Shown piece after piece: positions 15,461 through 24,204 of a stretch of 49,077 bases of DNA. Numbering within the stretch: position 1 is the stretch's first letter; every line of letters starts with the position of its first letter. Both the position numbers and the translations under genes were made by a program. The notes under the pieces are model-generated. The model saw only the letters and a program-made list of their open reading frames with translations, searched no databases and was not told where the DNA came from. Origin of the DNA: Lachnospiraceae bacterium (GTDB lineage: Bacteria > Bacillota > Clostridia > Lachnospirales > Lachnospiraceae); NCBI GenBank assembly GCA_016282915.1, contig JAEELW010000074.1, forward strand, positions 1 to 49,077. The letters run 5' to 3'.

Positions 15461-15571
15461 ACAGATTGCTGTCCGGCGCCTTCTGCGTTCCCGGTGCACG
15501 GTGATGGTCCGGACAGAACGTACAAATTGCTTCCGGGTGCAGTCAAAGCATGCCGGGAAAGGGAGGATATC

Positions 15572-16420
15572 ATGAAAAAGAAACTCATCAGCTTATTTGC
15601 TGCCGTACTCGGCGTTATGTGCCTTGCAGGCTGTGGGGAAAGCAAGCCCGCACAGACAGAACCTGACGCCAACGGTGGCCAGACTGCCGCAAGCAGCGAT
15701 TATGACTACATCAAAAACAACGGAAAGATGGTCATCGGCATCACGATCTACGAGCCGATGAACTACTACGACGAAAACAACAACCTGACCGGCTTTGATA
15801 CGGAATTTGCCGCGGATCTCTGCTCACGCCTGGGTGTGACCCCGAGTTTCCAGGTCATCGACTGGGATATGAAGGAGACCGAGCTGAAATCCAAGAACAT
15901 CGACTGCATCTGGAACGGCCTGACTGTGACCGAAGAACGCCGTGCGAACATGGACTTCACAAAGACCTATCTCCTGAACCGCCAGTGCGTGGTGGTCAAG
16001 TCCGAAAATGTTTCCAAGTATAAGGATAAGGAATCCCTTGCTTCCGCCATGATGAGCGCCGAGAGCGGCTCTGCCGGCGAGAGTGCCATCGTTGACGATC
16101 CTGTCCTTTCCGCTGCAAGCTATACGGCTTCCAATTCACAGCAGGATGCGCTGGTCGCCCTGAATGCAGGAAACTATGATGCCATCGTCATCGACTACAC
16201 CATGGCCTCTTCCACCGTGGGCAAGGGAGATTTCTCCGGCCTCAGCGTTGTGGACGGGATCGAGCTGGCCAACGAGGAATATGCCATCGGTTTCCGTGTG
16301 GGTTCCGATATGACCGCCCGCGTAAACGACGTGATCACCGAGATGATCACGGACGGCACTCTTGCCGCCATCGCCCAGAAATATGATATGACGGATCTGT
16401 ACGAATCCGCAGTAAAGTAA
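15572..16420 (+). CDS. Polar amino acid ABC transporter substrate-binding lipoprotein
   Basis: A 282-residue lipoprotein. The start is set by GGGAGG 7 nt upstream and by the signal peptide; an in-frame start further upstream lacks a ribosome binding site. The lipobox LAGC places the acylated Cys at 21. The mature part is a family 3 solute-binding protein, with GKMVIGITIYEPMNYYD, GFDTEFAADLC, and a WNGLTVTEER motif typical of polar amino acid binders. It is followed by its permease and ATPase genes, so it should deliver its ligand to that complex at the membrane. The sequence does not fix the substrate; glutamine, cystine or another polar amino acid are possible. Confidence 0.9.
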   Translation: MKKKLISLFAAVLGVMCLAGCGESKPAQTEPDANGGQTAASSDYDYIKNNGKMVIGITIYEPMNYYDENNNLTGFDTEFAADLCSRLGVTPSFQVIDWDMKETELKSKNIDCIWNGLTVTEERRANMDFTKTYLLNRQCVVVKSENVSKYKDKESLASAMMSAESGSAGESAIVDDPVLSAASYTASNSQQDALVALNAGNYDAIVIDYTMASSTVGKGDFSGLSVVDGIELANEEYAIGFRVGSDMTARVNDVITEMITDGTLAAIAQKYDMTDLYESAVK

Positions 16421-16438
16421 TGTAACGGAGGAGCAGCT

Positions 16439-17122
16439 TTGGAAACCTTTCTTTCGGTAAGCGCAAAACTCGCACAGGGCTTCGGAACCACACTGGCGCT
16501 CTTTTTCCTTACGCTGCTCTTCGCCATCCCTCTGGGACTCTTATTTGCCTGCCTGGCCCGCGCGCGCTTCAAGCCCGTGCGCTGGCTCATGCGGGCTTTT
16601 ATCTACATCATCCGCGGTACACCGCTTCTTCTGCAGCTTATGATCGTGGTGTACCTGCCGGGTATCGTCTTCGACCATCCCCTGACCAAATGGGAGATCT
16701 TTCACCAGAGCACGGACCTCGCCTATTTCTGCGGCGCGCTCTTCGCTTTCGTGATCAACTATGCCTGCTATTTTTCCGAGATCTTCCGCGGCGGCATCGA
16801 GAATATCCCCAAGGGGCAGTACGAGGCCTGCGAAGTGCTGGGCATGAGCAAAAGCCAGGCCTTTTTCAAGGTGATCCTGCTGCAGGTGATCCGTAATATC
16901 ATCGCTCCCATGAGCAATGAAGTGGTCACCCTGGTCAAGGATACCGCTCTCGCAAGAACGGTATCGGTCGTGGAGATCTACTTCGCTGCCAGCGAGATCC
17001 TCCGGCTGCAGTTCATCATCTGGCCGCTCTTTTATACCGGTGCGTTCTATCTTGCTTTCAGCGCACTGGTCACGCTTTTCTTCGGGATCGTCGAAAAGAA
17101 ACTTTCACGTTATTGGAGATAA
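16439..17122 (+). CDS. Amino acid ABC transporter permease (HisM/GlnP type)
   Basis: A 227-residue inner-membrane permease with about five transmembrane segments. The EAA loop that contacts the ATPase is visible at about 122-150 (GGIENIPKGQYEACEVLGMS). The start codon is TTG, with GGAGGAG 5 nt upstream and no better ATG nearby. It lies 18 nt after the binding-protein gene and 3 nt before the ATPase gene. A single permease gene suggests a homodimer. Confidence 0.92.
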   Translation: METFLSVSAKLAQGFGTTLALFFLTLLFAIPLGLLFACLARARFKPVRWLMRAFIYIIRGTPLLLQLMIVVYLPGIVFDHPLTKWEIFHQSTDLAYFCGALFAFVINYACYFSEIFRGGIENIPKGQYEACEVLGMSKSQAFFKVILLQVIRNIIAPMSNEVVTLVKDTALARTVSVVEIYFAASEILRLQFIIWPLFYTGAFYLAFSALVTLFFGIVEKKLSRYWR

Positions 17123-17125
17123 GAT

Positions 17126-17899
17126 ATGGCACTCTTGGAAGTACGGGAACTGAAGAAGAATTTCGGCGAGACCGAGGTGCTCAAGGGCATCAGCTTTGAT
17201 CTGAACGCAAACGAAGTGCTTTCGATCATCGGCTCTTCCGGCAGCGGCAAGACCACCCTGCTCCGCTGTTTAAACTTCCTGGAGCATGCGGATCACGGCT
17301 GTATCAGCGTGGACGGTAAGCGGATCTATGACGCCGCCGATCCCGCCACGCGCGCACCGAAAGCCATCCATAAAAACCGTACCAACTTCGGGCTGGTCTT
17401 CCAGTCCTTCAATCTCTTCCCGCAATACAGCGTTCTGGAAAACCTTACGCTGGCTGCTATGCTCAAGGCAAAGGAAAGCGGCGAAGGAAAGATCAACAAA
17501 AAAGAACTGAAAGAAAAGCTGGAACAGCAGGGCATGGAGCTTCTGACACGCATAGGTCTCGCGGACAAGAAGGATGCTTATCCCTGCATGCTCTCCGGCG
17601 GTCAGCAGCAGCGTGTCGCCATAGCCCGCGCCCTGATGCTCACGCCGCGCATCCTCTGCTTTGACGAACCGACCAGTGCCCTGGATCCGGAGCTTACGAA
17701 AGAAGTGCTCCACGTGATCAAAGACCTGCGCGCTGCCGGAAATACCATGATCGTTGTTACCCACGAGATGGAATTTGCAAAGAACGCTTCCGATAAAGTC
17801 ATTTTCATGTCCAAAGGCGTCATAGAAGAAAGCGGCACGCCGGAAGAACTCTTCGGCTCCCCGAAGAGCCCCGTCCTCCGCTCCTTCCTGATGCAGTAA
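17126..17899 (+). CDS. Amino acid ABC transporter ATP-binding protein (GlnQ type)
   Basis: A 257-residue ATPase. Walker A is GSSGSGKTT (36-44), the Q-loop region is GLVFQSFNLFP, the signature is [15 protein letters not shown], and Walker B is ILCFDEPTSALDP, followed by the H-loop in VVTHEM. It is the last gene of the three-gene importer operon. The stop codon is only 10 nt from the stop of the convergent operon, and no clear terminator separates them. Confidence 0.94.
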   Translation: MALLEVRELKKNFGETEVLKGISFDLNANEVLSIIGSSGSGKTTLLRCLNFLEHADHGCISVDGKRIYDAADPATRAPKAIHKNRTNFGLVFQSFNLFPQYSVLENLTLAAMLKAKESGEGKINKKELKEKLEQQGMELLTRIGLADKKDAYPCMLSGGQQQRVAIARALMLTPRILCFDEPTSALDPELTKEVLHVIKDLRAAGNTMIVVTHEMEFAKNASDKVIFMSKGVIEESGTPEELFGSPKSPVLRSFLMQ

Positions 17900-17909
17900 A
17901 AACCTTCCC

Positions 17910-18659
17910 TTAATCGAACTTTAAACTCTCCAGAAAACGCTGAAGACGTTCTGTCTTCGGATAATGGAAGATCTGCTCCGCAGTTCCCTCTTCAATGATA
18001 CTGCCGCCGTCCATAAAGATCACACGGTCAGCCACGGCTTCCGCAAAAGCCATCTCATGCGTCACGATCAGCATGGTCCGGCCTTCCTTTGCAAGGGAGA
18101 GCACCAGCTCCAGCACTTCCCGCACCATCTCGGGATCCAGCGCCGCCGTGATCTCATCCAGCAGCAGAAGCTCCGGATGCATGATAAGCGCCCGGGCGAT
18201 CGCCACACGCTGTTTCTGCCCGCCCGAAAGCTGCGACGGATACTTATCCCTGTGGGCACTCAGACCGATACGTTCGAGCAGCGCCAGGGCTTCCGCCTCC
18301 GCCTCTTCTTTCTTCCGCTTCTGAACTTTGAGCGGTGCCAGGGTGATGTTTTTCAGTATCGTCTTGTGCGGGAAGAGCTCGTAGCTCTGAAAGACCATGC
18401 CGATGCGCTCCCGCATACGGAAGATCCCCGCACTTTTCGGATCCACGGGCTCGCCGTGCAGGAGGATGCGTCCCTCATCCGTCTTTTCCAGGCCGTTTAA
18501 GCAGCGCAGCAGCGTGCTCTTCCCGCAGCCGGAGGGTCCGATGATGACCACCACTTCCCCACTTTTGATCTCCAGATCGATATCCTTAAGCACCTCCGTA
18601 TCCCCGTAGGATTTTTTCAGGTGCCCGATCGTAAGTATCACTTCATTTTTCTTATCCAT
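17910..18659 (-). CDS. Amino acid ABC transporter ATP-binding protein (GlnQ type)
   Basis: A 249-residue ATPase with Walker [10 protein letters not shown], signature [15 protein letters not shown], Walker [14 protein letters not shown] (Ile replaces the usual Pro after DE) and VTHEM. The start chosen overlaps the end of the permease gene by 8 nt (ATGGATAA), so translation is probably coupled; a longer frame upstream lies inside that permease gene. It is the last gene of the composite importer operon and should power the two HisM-type permeases encoded just before it. Confidence 0.93.
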
Positions 18660-19341
18660 TTGCTTTTTTCTCCAGATAACGTGACAGCAGGCTGATCGGG
18701 TAGCAGGCCAGGAAGTAAAGAAGAAATACCGTTGCAAATACGCCGAAGGCCGCATTGGGTGAGCTTTTCCTGTTTGCCTCTATGATCTGCTGCCCCACCT
18801 TCAGTACCTCCACGATGCCGATCATCATCACAAGGCTGGTGGTCTTGATCATGCGGGTGATGAGGTTGATCGTATTCGGCAGGATACGCCTTATGATCTG
18901 CGGAACGATAACGAAGCAGTAAGTTTTGGCGGTGTTCATCCCCAGGGCTGCGCTGCTTTCATACTGGGCGCGCGGTATGCTCTGTACGGCTCCCCGCACC
19001 AGATCCGACATCTCCGCCGTTCCCCATAAGGAAAAGACGATGAGGGAGGACAGCTCCGGCGAAAGCTTGAGACCGAAGGCTCTGGTCGCCCCGAAATAGA
19101 CGATAAAGAGCAGCACCATCTGCGGCATGATCCTTATGATCTCCAGATAGAGCCTGCCAAAAAAGCGTATCCCCTTCCGCTTCAGCGACATGAGCACGCC
19201 GAGCAGTCCGCCGAGCGGAAGGCTGATCAGTACCGCGATCATGCTGATCCGCAGGGCCACAAGCAGTCCTTCCAGCAGCCGCATTGCATTATTTCCTTTG
19301 AATAGTACATCAAATCCGAGATCTGTTATGATACTCTCCAT
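18652..19341 (-). CDS. Amino acid ABC transporter permease (HisM/GlnP type)
   Basis: A 229-residue permease with about five transmembrane segments and an EAA loop at about 115-140 ([20 protein letters not shown]). It lies 95 nt after the other HisM-type permease, the largest gap in this operon downstream of metN. The two permeases differ in sequence and may form a heterodimer, as in HisQM-type importers. Confidence 0.92.
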
Positions 19342-19436
19342 AATCCTGTCCCATCCGTCAGCTCTTTACTGTCCTGTATCCGCCGGCATACGAAAAAAAA
19401 TTTCCTTTTCCTCCGCAGCAATACCATTAATCCCGC

Positions 19437-20096
19437 TCACGTCCCGCTCCGCCCGAATTCGAATTTCTTCTCCAGCTTCCTGCCCAGCAGCGACACCGGC
19501 AGGAGCATGACGATATAAAACAGGACCAGAAGCACCAGGCACTCCGTGGTATCGTAATAAAGTCCGATCAGATCCTTTGCCGTAAACATCAGATCCATGA
19601 GGCTGATGGCCGAAAATACACTGGTCTCCTTTAACAGAAAGATCACATTGGCCACCACGGAGGGCGTGCTTATCGCAAAGGCCTGCGGAAGCACCACATG
19701 CACAAACAGCTGTCGTCTCGTCATTCCGAGACTCAGGGCACTCAGGCTCTGCGCCGGCGGCACCGCATCCAGGCCGCTGCGGAAACTTTCCGCCATATAG
19801 CTGCCTCCCAGAAGCCCCAGCCCCACTGCACCGCAGAGCTCCGGCGATACCGTAAAGCCCAACTTCGGCAGGCCGAAGTAGATAAAGAAGAGCTGCACCA
19901 GTAAGGGCGTGTTACGGAAAAGCTCAATATAGCCCGCCATGAGGCCCGACAGGAGCGGTATCTTAAAATGCCTGATGAACGCAGCTGCAAGGCCGATCAG
20001 GAGTGAAAGAGCGATCCCTGCCCAGCCGATCCTTAAGGTGAGCAGGAACGCCTCTCCAAAACGCGGGAGATATTCTCCCATTACCGCAAGATCCAT
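19437..20096 (-). CDS. Amino acid ABC transporter permease (HisM/GlnP type)
   Basis: A 219-residue permease with an EAA loop (SGLDAVPPAQSLSALSLGMT). It starts 2 nt after the metI stop codon, and its ribosome binding site (AAGGCAGGG) lies in the 3' end of metI. This places polar amino acid permeases in one transcript with the methionine-type importer genes. It probably pairs with the following permease. Confidence 0.92.
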   Translation of the reverse strand: MDLAVMGEYLPRFGEAFLLTLRIGWAGIALSLLIGLAAAFIRHFKIPLLSGLMAGYIELFRNTPLLVQLFFIYFGLPKLGFTVSPELCGAVGLGLLGGSYMAESFRSGLDAVPPAQSLSALSLGMTRRQLFVHVVLPQAFAISTPSVVANVIFLLKETSVFSAISLMDLMFTAKDLIGLYYDTTECLVLLVLFYIVMLLPVSLLGRKLEKKFEFGRSGT

Positions 20097-20098
20097 AT

Positions 20099-20767
20099 TC
20101 AGCCCTGCCTTTTCCGGTGATCGAGTTTTCTTACGATCATCATCCCGAGGTTCTGTATCAGCTGGAAGATCAGGATGAGCAGCAGTACGGTGACCACCAT
20201 GATACCGGTCTCCCAGCGGTAGTAGCCGTAGCGTACCGCGATATCACCCAGGCCGCCGCCGCCCACGGTCCCCGACATGGCCGAATAACCAAGCAGTATC
20301 CCCGTTGTGATCGTTGCTCCCGACAGGAGTGCGGTCCTGGCTTCCACGAGCATGACCTTCGTTACGATCTGAAGATTATCCGCCCCCATGGCTTTGGCCG
20401 CCTCGATCACGCCGGGATCCACTTCATTGAGCGCCGCCTCCACCACTCTTGCCACATAGGGCGCCGCGCAGATCACCAGCGGAACGATGGTCGCCGTGGA
20501 ACCGTAGCTCTTCCCCACCAGCGCCCTGGTAAAGGGAATGAGCAGGATCAGCAGGATCAGGAAGGGGACGCTGCGTATGATATTGCAGAGAAAGCCCAGG
20601 CTTCCGTGGATGATACGGTTCGGGTGCAGCCCCTCTTTTCCGCTGACGGAAAGCAATATGCCGGCGGGAAGCCCCAGTACATAGGCCACGGCCGTAGAGA
20701 TCAGGGTCATGTAAAGCGTATCTCCGATCCCTTCCAGAAGCATCTGTATGGTCTTTTGATCAAACAT
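20099..20767 (-). CDS. metI: Methionine-type ABC transporter permease MetI
   Basis: A 222-residue permease of the MetI family with five to six hydrophobic segments. The MetI-type coupling region is visible around NEVDPGVIEAAKAMGADNLQ. Its ATG overlaps the metN stop region by 8 nt, so the two are probably translationally coupled. MetI forms a dimer that works with MetN and a NlpA/MetQ lipoprotein, here fused to another binding domain in the first gene of the operon. Confidence 0.93.
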   Translation of the reverse strand: MFDQKTIQMLLEGIGDTLYMTLISTAVAYVLGLPAGILLSVSGKEGLHPNRIIHGSLGFLCNIIRSVPFLILLILLIPFTRALVGKSYGSTATIVPLVICAAPYVARVVEAALNEVDPGVIEAAKAMGADNLQIVTKVMLVEARTALLSGATITTGILLGYSAMSGTVGGGGLGDIAVRYGYYRWETGIMVVTVLLLILIFQLIQNLGMMIVRKLDHRKRQG

Positions 20768-21773
20768 AGTCTCTCACCTCCGTCACCGTAAGTCCCCGCT
20801 CCCTGAAATAGCGGATGATGGCTTCTCTTTTTTCTTTATCTCCGGGCAGACCCAGGATCATCTCTCCTTTGGCCTTTCCGTTCACATTTCTGGTATCGGC
20901 CTTTAAGATATTGATCGGCGTTCCGAATTTCAATATCGTATTGGCGATGAGCGGTTCAAAGGAGGAATTCTCCCGGAACACGATGCGTACCGGCGTTCCG
21001 TTTTCCGCTTTCTCAAGCGGCATGTACGCTTCTTTTGTTCCCGAGATGAGCTCCCTTGCGGCATCCGTCTGCGGTGCTTCAAAGATACACTCCACAGGTC
21101 CTTCTTCTACGAGCTTTCCGTTTTCCACGATGGCCACCCGTTCGCAGATCTCGGTCACGACATTCATCTGATGTGTGATGATCACGATGGTCAGCTTCAG
21201 CTTTTCGTTGATCTCTTTCAGGAGCCTTAAGATCGAGCCGGCGGTCTGCGGGTCCAGTGCACTGGTGGCCTCGTCACAGAGCAGGATCTTCGGATCCGTG
21301 GCCAGCGCCCTTGCGATGGCCACACGCTGCTTCTGTCCGCCGGACAGCCGTGAGGGATATTCCTTTTCCTTCTCCTCCAGGGCTACGGTCTTTAAAAGCT
21401 CCCTTGCCTTCGCATAGGCTTCTTTTTTCTTTATCCCGGCGAGCCTCATCGGAAAGCAGACATTGTCGATCACGTTTTTCTGTTCCAGCAGGTTGAAACC
21501 CTGAAAGATCATTCCGATGCGGCTGCGTTCCTTCCGAAGCTGCTTCGCCGTGAGACTGCTTAAGTCCACCCCGTCGATCAGGACCTGCCCCTCGCTGGGT
21601 TTTTCCAGAAAGTTGATCGAACGTACCAGGGTGCTCTTGCCTGCGCCCGACATGCCGATGATCCCGTAGACCGTTCCGGAAGCGATGCTCAGATTCACAT
21701 CGTCCAGCGCCGTCAGTGTATGCTCTTCCGCTTCAAATCTTTTTGTCAGATGTCTGATCTCGATCGCGCTCAT
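20760..21773 (-). CDS. metN: Methionine-type ABC transporter ATP-binding protein MetN
   Basis: A 337-residue ATPase. Walker A is GMSGAGKST, the signature is [15 protein letters not shown], and Walker B is ILLCDEATSALDP with the Ala typical of MetN. A C-terminal NIL domain (about 260-337) is present; in E. coli MetN this domain binds methionine and inhibits transport. GGAGAG precedes the ATG. It lies 59 nt after the binding-protein gene, with a hairpin in between that may lower its expression relative to the lipoprotein. Confidence 0.94.
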   Translation of the reverse strand: MSAIEIRHLTKRFEAEEHTLTALDDVNLSIASGTVYGIIGMSGAGKSTLVRSINFLEKPSEGQVLIDGVDLSSLTAKQLRKERSRIGMIFQGFNLLEQKNVIDNVCFPMRLAGIKKKEAYAKARELLKTVALEEKEKEYPSRLSGGQKQRVAIARALATDPKILLCDEATSALDPQTAGSILRLLKEINEKLKLTIVIITHQMNVVTEICERVAIVENGKLVEEGPVECIFEAPQTDAARELISGTKEAYMPLEKAENGTPVRIVFRENSSFEPLIANTILKFGTPINILKADTRNVNGKAKGEMILGLPGDKEKREAIIRYFRERGLTVTEVRDYV

Positions 21774-21832: not shown

Positions 21833-23515
21833 TTACTTTTTAAAGAAGATCACCGCTCCGTCGTATGTATCCGTGATGAATTTTTCGATCTCTTCAGATC
21901 TTAAAACGCTTACCAGCGCCTGGATCTTTGTGCTGTTTTCGTTTCCTTCATAGACCGCGATGATGTTCACATAGGTCTGTGCCGCTACGGAATCGCTGGA
22001 CTCGTATGCGATGGAATCCTTTCCTACCGAATAACCGGCTTCCAGTGCGTAGTTTCCGTTCAGTACCACAAACTCCACTTCACTCACGACTCTTGCGACC
22101 TGCGCTGCTTCCAGCTCCACAAATTCGATCTCATAAGGGTTCTCGGTGATATCGTTGATCGTGGCCGTAAGTCCGGCGTCATCTTTCAGCTTCAGCAGGC
22201 CGTTATCCTGCAGGAGCAGAAGGGCACGTGCTTCATTGGTGGTATCGTTGGGAACTGCGATACGGTCTCCCTTTGCGATATCGGAAAGGCTGTTTTTCGT
22301 TCCCGGATAGATCCCGAAGGGCTCGTAGTGGATATCGCCGGCATCTACAAGGTGGGTTCCCTGCTCTTCGTTAAAGCTATTCAGGTAAGGTACGTGTTCC
22401 ACATAGTTGGCGTCAAACTCGCCGGATTCCACCACCAGGTTGGGCTGTACATAATCTTCAAATTCCACGATGTCCAGGACATAACCGTAATCTTCAAGGA
22501 TCTCTGCGGCTTTTTCAAGGATCTGTGCGTGAGGGATCGGGGATGCCGCGATCCTGATCACTTCACCGTTTCCCTGCGGGATATCGAGCCCTTCTCCAGA
22601 CTGCACAACAGCATCATTCTGCACATCTGCGGGCTGCTCTCCATTTACGACACCGCCTTCCACGACCAGGGTTTCCTCATAATCCTTACCATAGGTATCC
22701 AGAAGGGTTGCTTCATAATCGGCATGGAAGAAATTCTCTTTTCCCAGATTTCTGATCTCGTCGTTCAGCCAGTTCAGAAGCGTGCTGTTGCCCTTCGAAA
22801 CGGCCGGTGCAATGGTATCCTGACTGCCGAGGGAAGGAATGCCCACAACATAACCCGGATTCTCGATGGCGTAGGCGATCACTTCCGTATTGTCATTGGC
22901 CCAGGCAACGCCGCTGCCGTTCTCAAAGGAGGTCTTGGCTGCCGCATAGGTATCGAATTTCTGCAGCTTGATCTCCGGGTTGTTCTGCTCAAGATAAGTC
23001 TCGGCTGTGGTGCCCGAGATGACGATGACCTGGTCATCCGCTCCGATCTGGCTCAGATCGGTGATCACGTTTCCTTCGGGGGAAACAACACCCAGTGCAA
23101 CATTCATGTAGGGAAGCGCGAAATCAACCTTCTGTGCTCTTTCCTCGGTCACCGTGAAGTTTGCAAGGACGATGTCCACCTTTCCGGTCTCGAGGTACTC
23201 CACCCTGCTGGCGGCTTCCGTGGAGACGTAATTGATATTCACTCCCAGATCCTGGCCGATGCGCTCTGCAAAATATACATCATAGCCCTGGTAAGTTCCG
23301 TTCTCATCCACATAACCGAAGGGGTTCTTGTCGGAGAAAACGCCGATGTTCACGGTTCCGCTCTCTTTGATCTCATCCAGGGTCCGGTAGATCTTTGCGC
23401 TGTCTGCCGGTGCATCCGCTTCCTTATCCGCCGCCTGGGCATTGCCGCAGCCCGTCAGCAGCGCGGCTCCGAGTCCCAGTGTTAATATGCCTTCCAGAAT
23501 TCTGTTCTTTTTCAT
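21833..23515 (-). CDS. Fused dual substrate-binding lipoprotein: family 3 binding domain plus MetQ/NlpA domain
   Basis: A 560-residue lipoprotein with lipobox LLTGC (Cys23). Residues about 40-275 are a family 3 polar amino acid binding domain (GTVNIGVFSDKNPFGY, YQGYDVYFAERI, ANFTVTEER). An acidic Gly/Gln/Val-rich linker (about 285-315) leads to a complete NlpA/MetQ domain at about 318-560 (EVIRIAASPIPHAQIL, DANYVEHVPYLNSF, VPNDTTNEARALLLL). Each half has roughly the length of a free binding protein, so both look functional. The downstream genes supply matching partners: MetNI for the second half, two HisM permeases and a GlnQ ATPase for the first. GGAGG precedes the ATG. The leader encodes a Cys-rich peptide and attenuator, which suggests cyst(e)ine and/or methionine as substrates. 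Confidence 0.92.
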   Translation of the reverse strand: MKKNRILEGILTLGLGAALLTGCGNAQAADKEADAPADSAKIYRTLDEIKESGTVNIGVFSDKNPFGYVDENGTYQGYDVYFAERIGQDLGVNINYVSTEAASRVEYLETGKVDIVLANFTVTEERAQKVDFALPYMNVALGVVSPEGNVITDLSQIGADDQVIVISGTTAETYLEQNNPEIKLQKFDTYAAAKTSFENGSGVAWANDNTEVIAYAIENPGYVVGIPSLGSQDTIAPAVSKGNSTLLNWLNDEIRNLGKENFFHADYEATLLDTYGKDYEETLVVEGGVVNGEQPADVQNDAVVQSGEGLDIPQGNGEVIRIAASPIPHAQILEKAAEILEDYGYVLDIVEFEDYVQPNLVVESGEFDANYVEHVPYLNSFNEEQGTHLVDAGDIHYEPFGIYPGTKNSLSDIAKGDRIAVPNDTTNEARALLLLQDNGLLKLKDDAGLTATINDITENPYEIEFVELEAAQVARVVSEVEFVVLNGNYALEAGYSVGKDSIAYESSDSVAAQTYVNIIAVYEGNENSTKIQALVSVLRSEEIEKFITDTYDGAVIFFKK

Positions 23516-23687: not shown

Positions 23688-23712
23688 AAAAAAATTCCGG
23701 GATCACTCCCGG
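23688..23712 (-). terminator. Attenuator terminator of the composite importer operon
   Basis: On the minus strand CCGGGA (23707-23712) and TCCCGG (23697-23702) form a stem with a GTGA tetraloop, followed by AA and seven U residues. It stands about 30 nt after the stop of the Cys-rich leader peptide and 173 nt before the first structural gene, so transcripts must pass it. The 5' arm with flanks (23706-23714, GCCCGGGAG) is perfectly complementary to 23795-23803 (CTCCCGGGC) inside the leader-peptide frame, which would be the antiterminator. Confidence 0.72.
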
Positions 23713-23742
23713 GCTCATGACTACGTCTATCTGAAATGACAG

Positions 23743-23850
23743 TTAACACGCATGGGGACACGACAAATGAGCCGCTTCCCCGGTCATCCTCATCGCCCGG
23801 GAGAAACACATTCGACACATACACCAACACTGTCTGTCTGTTCGCTTCAT
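23743..23850 (-). CDS. Cys-rich leader peptide (35 aa) of a predicted attenuator
   Basis: A 35-codon frame with an excellent ribosome binding site (AAGGAGG, 8-9 nt before ATG). Codons 8-15 read CWCMCRMC; in all there are six Cys and, besides the start, four Met. It ends with Cys-stop (TGT TAA). The antiterminator segment (23795-23803) begins at codon 16, so a ribosome stalled on the first Cys codons would leave it free to pair with the terminator arm. A ribosome that finishes would cover or pass it and allow termination. I therefore infer cysteine-responsive, possibly also methionine-responsive, transcription attenuation. The peptide itself probably has no other function. This frame is too short for standard gene finders. 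Confidence 0.7.
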   Translation of the reverse strand: MKRTDRQCWCMCRMCFSRAMRMTGEAAHLSCPHAC

Positions 23851-23919
23851 CAGTATTTCCTCCTTCTTCCGGAACCCTCACAGATCATCTCTTCCTCCTG
23901 CGCGGTTCCTCAAATTTCT

Positions 23920-23998
23920 GCCTCCGCTTCTGTCCCGCATCCCCTCGGCGGGGTCCTTCCTCTTTAACGAGGAAGGCTTGCATCACATTTTCGGAGGC
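23920..23998 (-). ncRNA. Multi-helix leader RNA of unknown class
   Basis: In the first 100 nt of the leader, GCCTCCG (23992-23998) pairs with CGGAGGC (23920-23926) and encloses two hairpins: an 8-bp stem CCTTCCTC/GAGGAAGG (23955-23976, 6-nt loop) and CCCC/GGGG (23941-23953). The result is a three-way junction with two purine-rich joining strands, each containing GATGC. I cannot match it to a riboswitch class: the SAM-I core (GGCCC, GGCAACC) is absent. A small hairpin ATCGTC/GACGAT precedes it. Confidence 0.4.
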
Positions 23999-24031
23999 GT
24001 ATCGTCTGCTTTGTTTTCTGACGATGGTATG

Positions 24032-24060
24032 AATATATCACCACTCCCCTAGTATGTCAA
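24032..24060 (-). promoter_or_regulatory. Promoter of the composite importer operon
   Basis: On the minus strand a perfect TTGACA (24055-24060) is followed after 17 nt by TATATT (24032-24037), with a TGn extension (TGATATATT). Predicted start near 24025, giving a leader of about 510 nt. The gene-free stretch 23516-24259 thus holds this promoter, the leader RNA elements described separately, two hairpins (24123-24142 GGACAGA/TCTGTCC and one just after with GCCCCGA/TCGGGGC) and the divergent dus promoter. Confidence 0.75.
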
Positions 24061-24204
24061 TAGGTTTTGTAGATTTTTTTATTTATTTTTTTCAAAGTTG
24101 TTTTTGGGAACACGGTTGCAGGACAGATGAGTTTCTGTCCGGCCCCGAGCCAGGCACTGCTGCGTGGCTTCGGGGCGATTCTTTGATCCGCAGGCATGCC
24201 GCCC

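Follow-up and report, generated by a model that had tools for sequence, protein, structure and literature searches.

The Cys-rich reading frame upstream of an importer operon in the window, a 49,077-nucleotide stretch of DNA from a Lachnospiraceae bacterium (contig JAEELW010000074.1), is very probably the leader of a ribosome-mediated transcription attenuator that reads the supply of cysteinyl-tRNA. Judged by its sequence features, the design is that of a family of leaders that gut Clostridia carry upstream of genes for sulfur amino acids. What was computed is the leader's anatomy, its conservation and covariation, the spacing and a fold switch; from these we infer the actual stalling, termination and response to cysteine.

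The elements of the leader lie on the minus strand (Table 1). An earlier note on this DNA had described a promoter, an AAGGAGG site, a 35-codon frame with Cys codons and an intrinsic terminator, all of which were confirmed for the leader at 23688-23850 (-). The AAGGAGG is located 8 nt 5′ of the leader ATG. The product of the frame, MKRTDRQCWCMCRMCFSRAMRMTGEAAHLSCPHAC, has Cys as its final residue, and Met codons 11, 14, 20 and 22 adjoin the Cys codons. The terminator arm lies 28 nt from the stop codon, and a terminator-like stem (23712-23697, minus strand) is followed by a T run. A complement of the terminator's 5′ arm, which the note had placed just 3′ of the Cys codons, was likewise observed: CTCCCGGGC (segment 2) and GCCCGGGAG (segment 3) are perfectly complementary over 9 nt. 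The promoter is about 180 nt upstream of the ORF, more distant than in most relatives; the distance from operator to core is 247 nt in the window, with a median of 113 nt, and exceeds 170 nt in 5 of 104 leaders. About 140 additional nucleotides between promoter and leader ORF (23890-24020, minus strand) contain a strong hairpin, GCCTCCG...CGGAGGC. A 12-codon mini-ORF, MICEGSGRRRKY, at 23850-23888 on the minus strand has its own GAGGA site and terminates in TGATG, overlapping the leader start codon, and translational coupling is possible.

Table 1. Positions of the leader elements and of the operon genes in the window
Feature	Positions	Strand	Basis
Operator CCTATTGACATACTAGG, overlapping the -35 hexamer; probable Rrf2-type regulator site	24048..24064	-	predicted
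Promoter-like TTGACA-17-TATATT, TG before second hexamer	24060-24032	-	11/12 matches
-10 hexamer TATATT	24032..24037	-	sequence match
Ribosome binding site of leader ORF, GAAGGAGGAA	23857..23866	-	sequence match
35-codon leader ORF, Cys codons 8, 10, 12, 15, 35	23743..23850	-	translation
Cys12 codon TGT, predicted control codon	23815..23817	-	ribosome-masked folds and spacing
CGAATG (Arg13-Met14), proposed segment 1, anti-antiterminator; weak in window	23809..23814	-	partner counts
Segment 2, CTCCCGGGC, helix A 5′ arm of antiterminator	23795..23803	-	complementarity
Helix B 5′ arm, ATGAC	23783..23787	-	register scan, covariation
CATTTG, possible CGAATG partner	23764..23769	-	partner counts; absent from window's minimum-energy fold
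Helix B 3′ arm, GTCAT	23717..23721	-	register scan
Segment 3, GCCCGGGAG, pairs with segment 2 or segment 4	23706..23714	-	complementarity, fold
Segment 4, TCCCGG and T run, remainder of intrinsic terminator	23688..23702	-	fold
Fused SBP_bac_3 and NlpA/MetQ lipoprotein, first structural gene	21833..23515	-	family matches
MetN-like ATPase with NIL domain	20760..21773	-	family matches
MetI-like permease	20099..20767	-	family matches
Two polar amino acid (cystine-type) permeases (19437-20096 and 18652-19341)	18652..20096	-	family matches
GlnQ/TcyN-like ATPase	17910..18755	-	family matches

The arrangement of these elements suggests how the leader may work. RNA polymerase would start at the operator-bearing promoter, and a ribosome would translate the leader ORF. 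With ample Cys-tRNA, the ribosome would run over segment 2, leaving segment 3 to pair with segment 4; the resulting terminator would keep the importer off. Under Cys-tRNA shortage, the ribosome would wait with Cys12 (or Cys10, or Cys8) in the A site, its front edge at about +12 from the Cys codon and just short of segment 2, which begins at +14. Pairing with segment 2 and within a further helix (helix B) could then occupy segment 3 and its 5′ flank, in which case no terminator would form and polymerase would read through into the operon. Methionine might be sensed too, through the Met codons that the cluster also contains.

The predicted switch was followed by folding with and without a ribosome footprint, a check proposed in the earlier note, with positions -14 to +15 around the P site masked in all 118 leaders of the family. 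The window leader switches: as naked RNA it gave 0.01 for the antiterminator and 0.65 for the terminator, with the A site on Cys12 it gave 0.96 and 0.02, and with the A site on Met14 the antiterminator was at 0.00 and the terminator at only 0.66. Over the 118 leaders, the antiterminator reached a mean of 0.85 with the A site on the fixed Cys codon (>0.5 in 88%) and 0.15 with that site on the Met lying two codons further along (>0.5 in 0%), where the terminator exceeded 0.5 in 75%. With the ribosome farther along than this Met, the terminator exceeded 0.5 in 92% of leaders. The computation predicts an antiterminator that excludes the terminator and lies just ahead of a Cys-stalled ribosome. The notion that an early Cys stall frees the antiterminator is supported by the masked folds, with the correction that Cys12, the last Cys ahead of the antiterminator, is probably decisive; for a stall at Met14, termination is predicted.

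Naked RNA prefers the antiterminator in 62% of leaders (the window's is not among them), and a ribosome placed at the stop codon brought the terminator above 0.5 in only 51%. The OFF state is therefore not given everywhere by equilibrium folding alone. A segment 1 hairpin, in which CGAATG pairs with CGTTCG or CATTTG, could explain this state but is unproven. For GTCGAATGC, which spans the Cys-Arg-Met codons, a partner pairing at all 9 positions is present in 38 of the 118 leaders, as against 1.0 expected, and for CGAATG a 6-pair partner is present in 64, as against 12.2 expected, clustered at +40 (CGTTCG) or +48 (CATTTG); the 6-mers adjoining CGAATG also reach 43 to 59 partners. The segment 1:2 hairpin is absent from the window's own minimum-energy fold. 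An OFF state in which segment 2 pairs with the CCGGGG that follows it was considered first and given up for the CGAATG proposal.

Relatives of the leader were sought at several levels of stringency. Blastn of the window leader on 299 genomes of the host's family matched two genomes besides the window's own. One of these leaders (G187), MKNVLLTSSSNMCMCMCRMLFSQASEMTGCMAHLSCSRK, precedes the same fused lipoprotein and has the arms CTCCCAGGC/GCCTGGGAG; the other (G075) has the same promoter as the window and the peptide ...MWCRMPVSRA.... Matches are few because the leader DNA is too diverged, and a pattern search was therefore needed. A relaxed core pattern gave matches in 17 of the 299 genomes, and five of its places without an arm (L004, L005, L006, L007 and L011) were treated as chance. 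The strict core pattern, TGYCGAATGNNNNTCTCCCRGGC, was found in at least 119 stretches across the genome collection, which together with other loci gave at least 123 distinct core places. At least 118 distinct leaders among these, the window's counted, have an arm matching at 8 or more of 9 positions and enough sequence behind it. Five places were dropped: L042 has a 9/9 arm and too little sequence behind it, L081, L136 and L137 are at the end of the available sequence, and L029 (Candidatus Sulfotelmatobacter), the sole title from outside Clostridia, has no arm and was for that reason taken as chance. According to at least 80 locus titles and the tree labels, the hosts are Lachnospiraceae, Oscillospiraceae/Ruminococcaceae, Christensenellaceae, Eubacteriaceae and other Clostridia.

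Because CRM, S(R/Q)A and segment 2 are prescribed by the core pattern, their constancy in the 118 leaders is not evidence; the set was, in addition, selected for the arm. In the Cys-codon frame, 114 of 118 leaders have a start ATG preceded by a ribosome site 4 or more bases long, compared with 7 and 2 in the other two frames; the leader appears to be a translated short ORF between the promoter and the first gene. Immediately before the fixed Cys stands another Cys codon in 76/118, and one codon further upstream Met stands in 59 and Cys in 35. At least one Cys is present in codons -4 to -1, outside the pattern, in 91/118 leaders and Cys or Met in 113/118, while at codons -12 to -9 none of the three gene classes has any Cys, and Met amounts to 3%–9%. 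Codons of the regulated amino acid are concentrated in the leader ORF, as in an attenuator. An intrinsic terminator precedes the first structural gene in the window and in the family, with a 3:4 stem of at least 5 contiguous pairs in 118/118 leaders and TTTT behind the stem in 113/118. Cys codons and arm pairing, whose conservation in relatives the earlier note had wanted checked, both recur in the 118 leaders, with compensatory changes.

These changes also answer the caveat that CCCGGG is palindromic, which would make part of the complementarity automatic, because the arms covary. Where the core is the non-palindromic CTCCCAGGC, the arm carries the matching T in 13/13 leaders (GCCTGGGAG in 12, GTCTGGGAG in 1), and where the core is CTCCCGGGC, with G, the arm has C, not T, in 105/105; this covariation of helix A concerns the single position free to vary in the core pattern.

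Helix B is newly proposed here as a second antiterminator helix, and it covaries. Its 5′ arm, ATGRC, occupies positions +30 to +34 past the Cys codon, and its 3′ arm, GYCAT, covers the stretch from 7 to 3 bases upstream of segment 3. When 12 × 11 registers were scanned, this one was fully paired in 44 of 118 leaders and the others in 0 to 30, the exception being a competing GGGGC/GCCC at +37/-1 with 46 fully paired. The mean for permuted partners was 30.7, and 0 of 5000 permutations were as high as 44. When rows carrying either commonest half were set aside, 16 of the remaining 61 were paired, as against 8.1 expected (0/5000 as high). Five pairs in some register are found in 87/118 leaders, not in all. 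Pairing types include ATGGC:GCCAT (23 leaders) and the window's ATGAC:GTCAT (7), and also TCGGC:GCCGA, ACGGC:GCCGT and ACGGT:ACCGA. On the MetY tree, CGG/CCG needs three changes in 7 rows and TGA/TCA three in 3, and on the transporter tree TGA/TCA needs four changes in 4 rows, with many forks weak and the transporter tree a quick tree. In the window's minimum-energy antiterminator, a neighboring AUGA:UCAU pairing replaces helix B.

The operator allowed a test outside the core pattern. Its pattern, CCTATTGACANNNTAGG, is present in 94 of the 299 genomes, and reversed-pattern controls were far rarer. At the 111 operator sites that were read (about five matching rows were left out), a short ORF with at least three Cys in 8 codons before the first long ORF was found 22 times, whereas the reverse strand gave 2 and shuffled sequence 1.5, so Cys leaders are a minority of operator sites. 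The window leader itself failed this automatic rule, an overlapping GTG frame having been taken as the first gene. Sixteen of the 22 are at loci without the core pattern; L003, among the other six, is a wrong-frame ORF. The 16, with L196 and L167, make up 18 operator-found leaders, a set selected for Cys. A terminator was found by rule in 14 of the 18, and L196, which fails the rule, has one by eye. When a duplex with the terminator arm was searched for, beginning 20 nt upstream of the last Cys codon, the best one started +8 to +18 after that codon in 11/14 leaders, where a Cys-stalled ribosome would end (1.5 expected; 0 of 200000 simulations); the others started at +2 (L148), +5 (L238) and +19 (L180). 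Only 7/14 duplexes individually beat shuffles at p <0.05, with a combined Fisher p of 1.4e-9. Many arms are unrelated to the core (ACCCAAGCG, TTTCCGG and TTCGGACGGGTGA, for example), which together with the spacing indicates that the letters vary but the Cys run, its spacing and the pairing persist. L143 and L220, for which no terminator was found by rule, have their Cys runs at the stop codon (RMCCCCWK and CCMCCLVTE), lie before metY-type genes and perhaps use a different output mechanism.

By family matches, the operon behind the window leader encodes a putative importer of cystine and methionine, which bears out the earlier reading as an amino acid importer operon. Its lipoprotein joins cystine-type and methionine-type binding domains and is followed by permeases and ATPases of both kinds, the makeup of a two-substrate importer operon. 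Another ABC importer for amino acids, made up of a cystine-type binding protein, a permease and an ATPase, is found at 15494-17899 (+), its end facing the first importer. A single importer leader had been described originally; the importer stands, and the picture now extends to a large family whose most frequent downstream neighbor is a metY-type gene. Sixty-one of the 113 leaders with a downstream ORF precede the MetY cluster (representative L046, TIGR01326 above cut-off), 34 the cluster of the window's SBP-MetQ lipoprotein and 5 a permease cluster; the other 13 downstream ORFs form small groups, some clearly wrong-frame. Elsewhere in the window's genome (L196, 200-500), a second operator site precedes MKFLTIDKKAKTCQYCRMLMTRAGFSGRGRRL, the arms CCGGGCAG/CTGCCCGG, a terminator and a metY-type gene; by these features it is a second leader of the window's design.

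An operator within 4 mismatches of CCTATTGACATAGTAGG is present in 104 of the 115 leaders with at least 100 nt upstream, and in 1% in shuffles. Genes downstream of bare operators include Rrf2 regulators (L161, L223), sufC, nifS, cysK and a GshA-like ligase. This occurrence before Rrf2, Fe-S and sulfur genes points to an autoregulated Rrf2-type sulfur and Fe-S regulon, with the regulator presumed to bind at the operator. We suggest tentatively that the Cys/Met attenuators may form a second control layer of this Clostridial regulon. The repressor would read the metabolite or Fe-S state and the leader tRNA charging by codon. A stall at Cys (or at an upstream Met) would give readthrough and one at the Met two codons later termination, by which cysteine shortage could be told from methionine shortage.

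The part played by the interleaved Met codons bears on what is sensed. If these are also control codons, the attenuator would sense methionine, or Met and Cys jointly. Met makes up 25%–32% of codons -4 to -1, unforced by the pattern, as against 3%–9% at -12 to -9; MetY, the commonest downstream enzyme, makes homocysteine, and the window operon has MetN/MetI/MetQ parts. However, the last codon before the antiterminator is Cys, though by construction in the core set, and the operator-found leaders, themselves selected for Cys, also end the cluster on Cys runs (CCCC, MCCCC, MCMCMCCC). A stall on the fixed Met two codons later would moreover cover segment 2 and terminate. Met co-sensing is plausible, but a methionine or joint sensor is an unlikely description of the device. 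Much less probable still is an arrest peptide, in which the nascent chain CRMxxSRA would stall the ribosome with a small molecule (cysteine, cystine or SAM). CRM and SRA do recur and the segment is constrained, but the search pattern forces both motifs, and the operator-found leaders share only Cys/Met runs (CCCTNLTQA, CCCAKSDPR, CCCCRSMFIR). Furthermore, in leaders with a one-base shift (an extra base) after segment 2, L021, L049, L063 and L072 among them, the peptide is altered while ATGGC:GCCAT is kept.

The short, conserved, Cys-rich ORF could also encode a metal- or redox-binding microprotein placed before an ordinary terminator. It is without a family match in Pfam or NCBIfam, its Cys codons are concentrated at a fixed distance before the antiterminator, and the arm complementarity and compensatory changes have no place in such a reading, which we consider extremely improbable. 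Control of the operon by a T-box or S-box (SAM) riboswitch would be usual for sulfur amino acids in Clostridia, as described in PMC2940859, and is hardly credible here. The window gave 0 Rfam matches at gathering score and sub-threshold ones only, up to E = 5; the best candidate, anti-hemB on the opposite strand, was far below its cut-off and was rejected. Neither a T-box (specifier loop and T-box sequence) nor a SAM match was found in the leader up to E = 5, nor a SAM-I riboswitch in the whole genome at E up to 0.001, whereas three control genomes gave matches. T-boxes were seen at three places in the genome, all below cut-off and none on the window's contig.

If attenuation by Cys codons is widespread, it would explain the control of many Clostridial metY and cystine/methionine transport genes. 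The leader family would be an addition to RNA families, being absent from Rfam 15 as searched here, and its more than 100 natural leaders, which vary in codon, spacing and pairing, are a test set for the coupling of ribosome and RNA polymerase in Gram-positives.

T-boxes, S-boxes and CymR-type repressors are the mechanisms commonly cited for the control of sulfur amino acid genes in Firmicutes. A literature search, with most subscription papers outside its scope, found no description of a Clostridial Cys leader family. The trp and his operons of E. coli have leader-peptide attenuators, with codons of the regulated amino acid in the leader ORF. The window family is like these in the placing of such codons and in the segment shared by antiterminator and intrinsic terminator. 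It is unlike them in its Cys/Met codons, its promoter operator and the long ORF tail past segment 2, which puts the stop codon inside the antiterminator loop.

Cys leader peptides of mycobacteria were reportedly treated by Canestrari et al. in 2020, a study cited in PMC13236596. A short ORF with a Cys codon run upstream of sulfur genes, as in the window, is described for mycobacteria, Propionibacterium and Bifidobacterium (PMC1262725). In that account, the Actinobacterial leaders are without conserved terminator hairpins and have their Cys near the stop, whereas a terminator is present in the window and family, together with an antiterminator and a ribosome site at the start. The uORFC-8-2 motif of Rhodobacterales cysS shares with the window family an ORF with Cys codons, there in tandem, an intrinsic terminator and predicted ribosome-mediated attenuation (PMC8632094); as described, it is Alphaproteobacterial and exclusive to cysS, which sets it apart from Clostridial leaders before metY, cystine/Met transport genes and cysK. 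In the Cys T-boxes of Clostridium perfringens, as reported in PMC2940859, Cys-tRNA charging controls premature termination before cysteine genes, as is predicted here, but T-boxes work without an ORF, by binding the tRNA directly. Among Firmicutes, a leader-peptide attenuator has a precedent in the His leader of bacilli, called new outside Proteobacteria and Actinobacteria by the 2010 paper (PMC2965389); unlike the window family, that leader concerns histidine and hisS/hisZ. Ribosome-mediated attenuation is already known, and its predicted Clostridial Cys form appears to be new.
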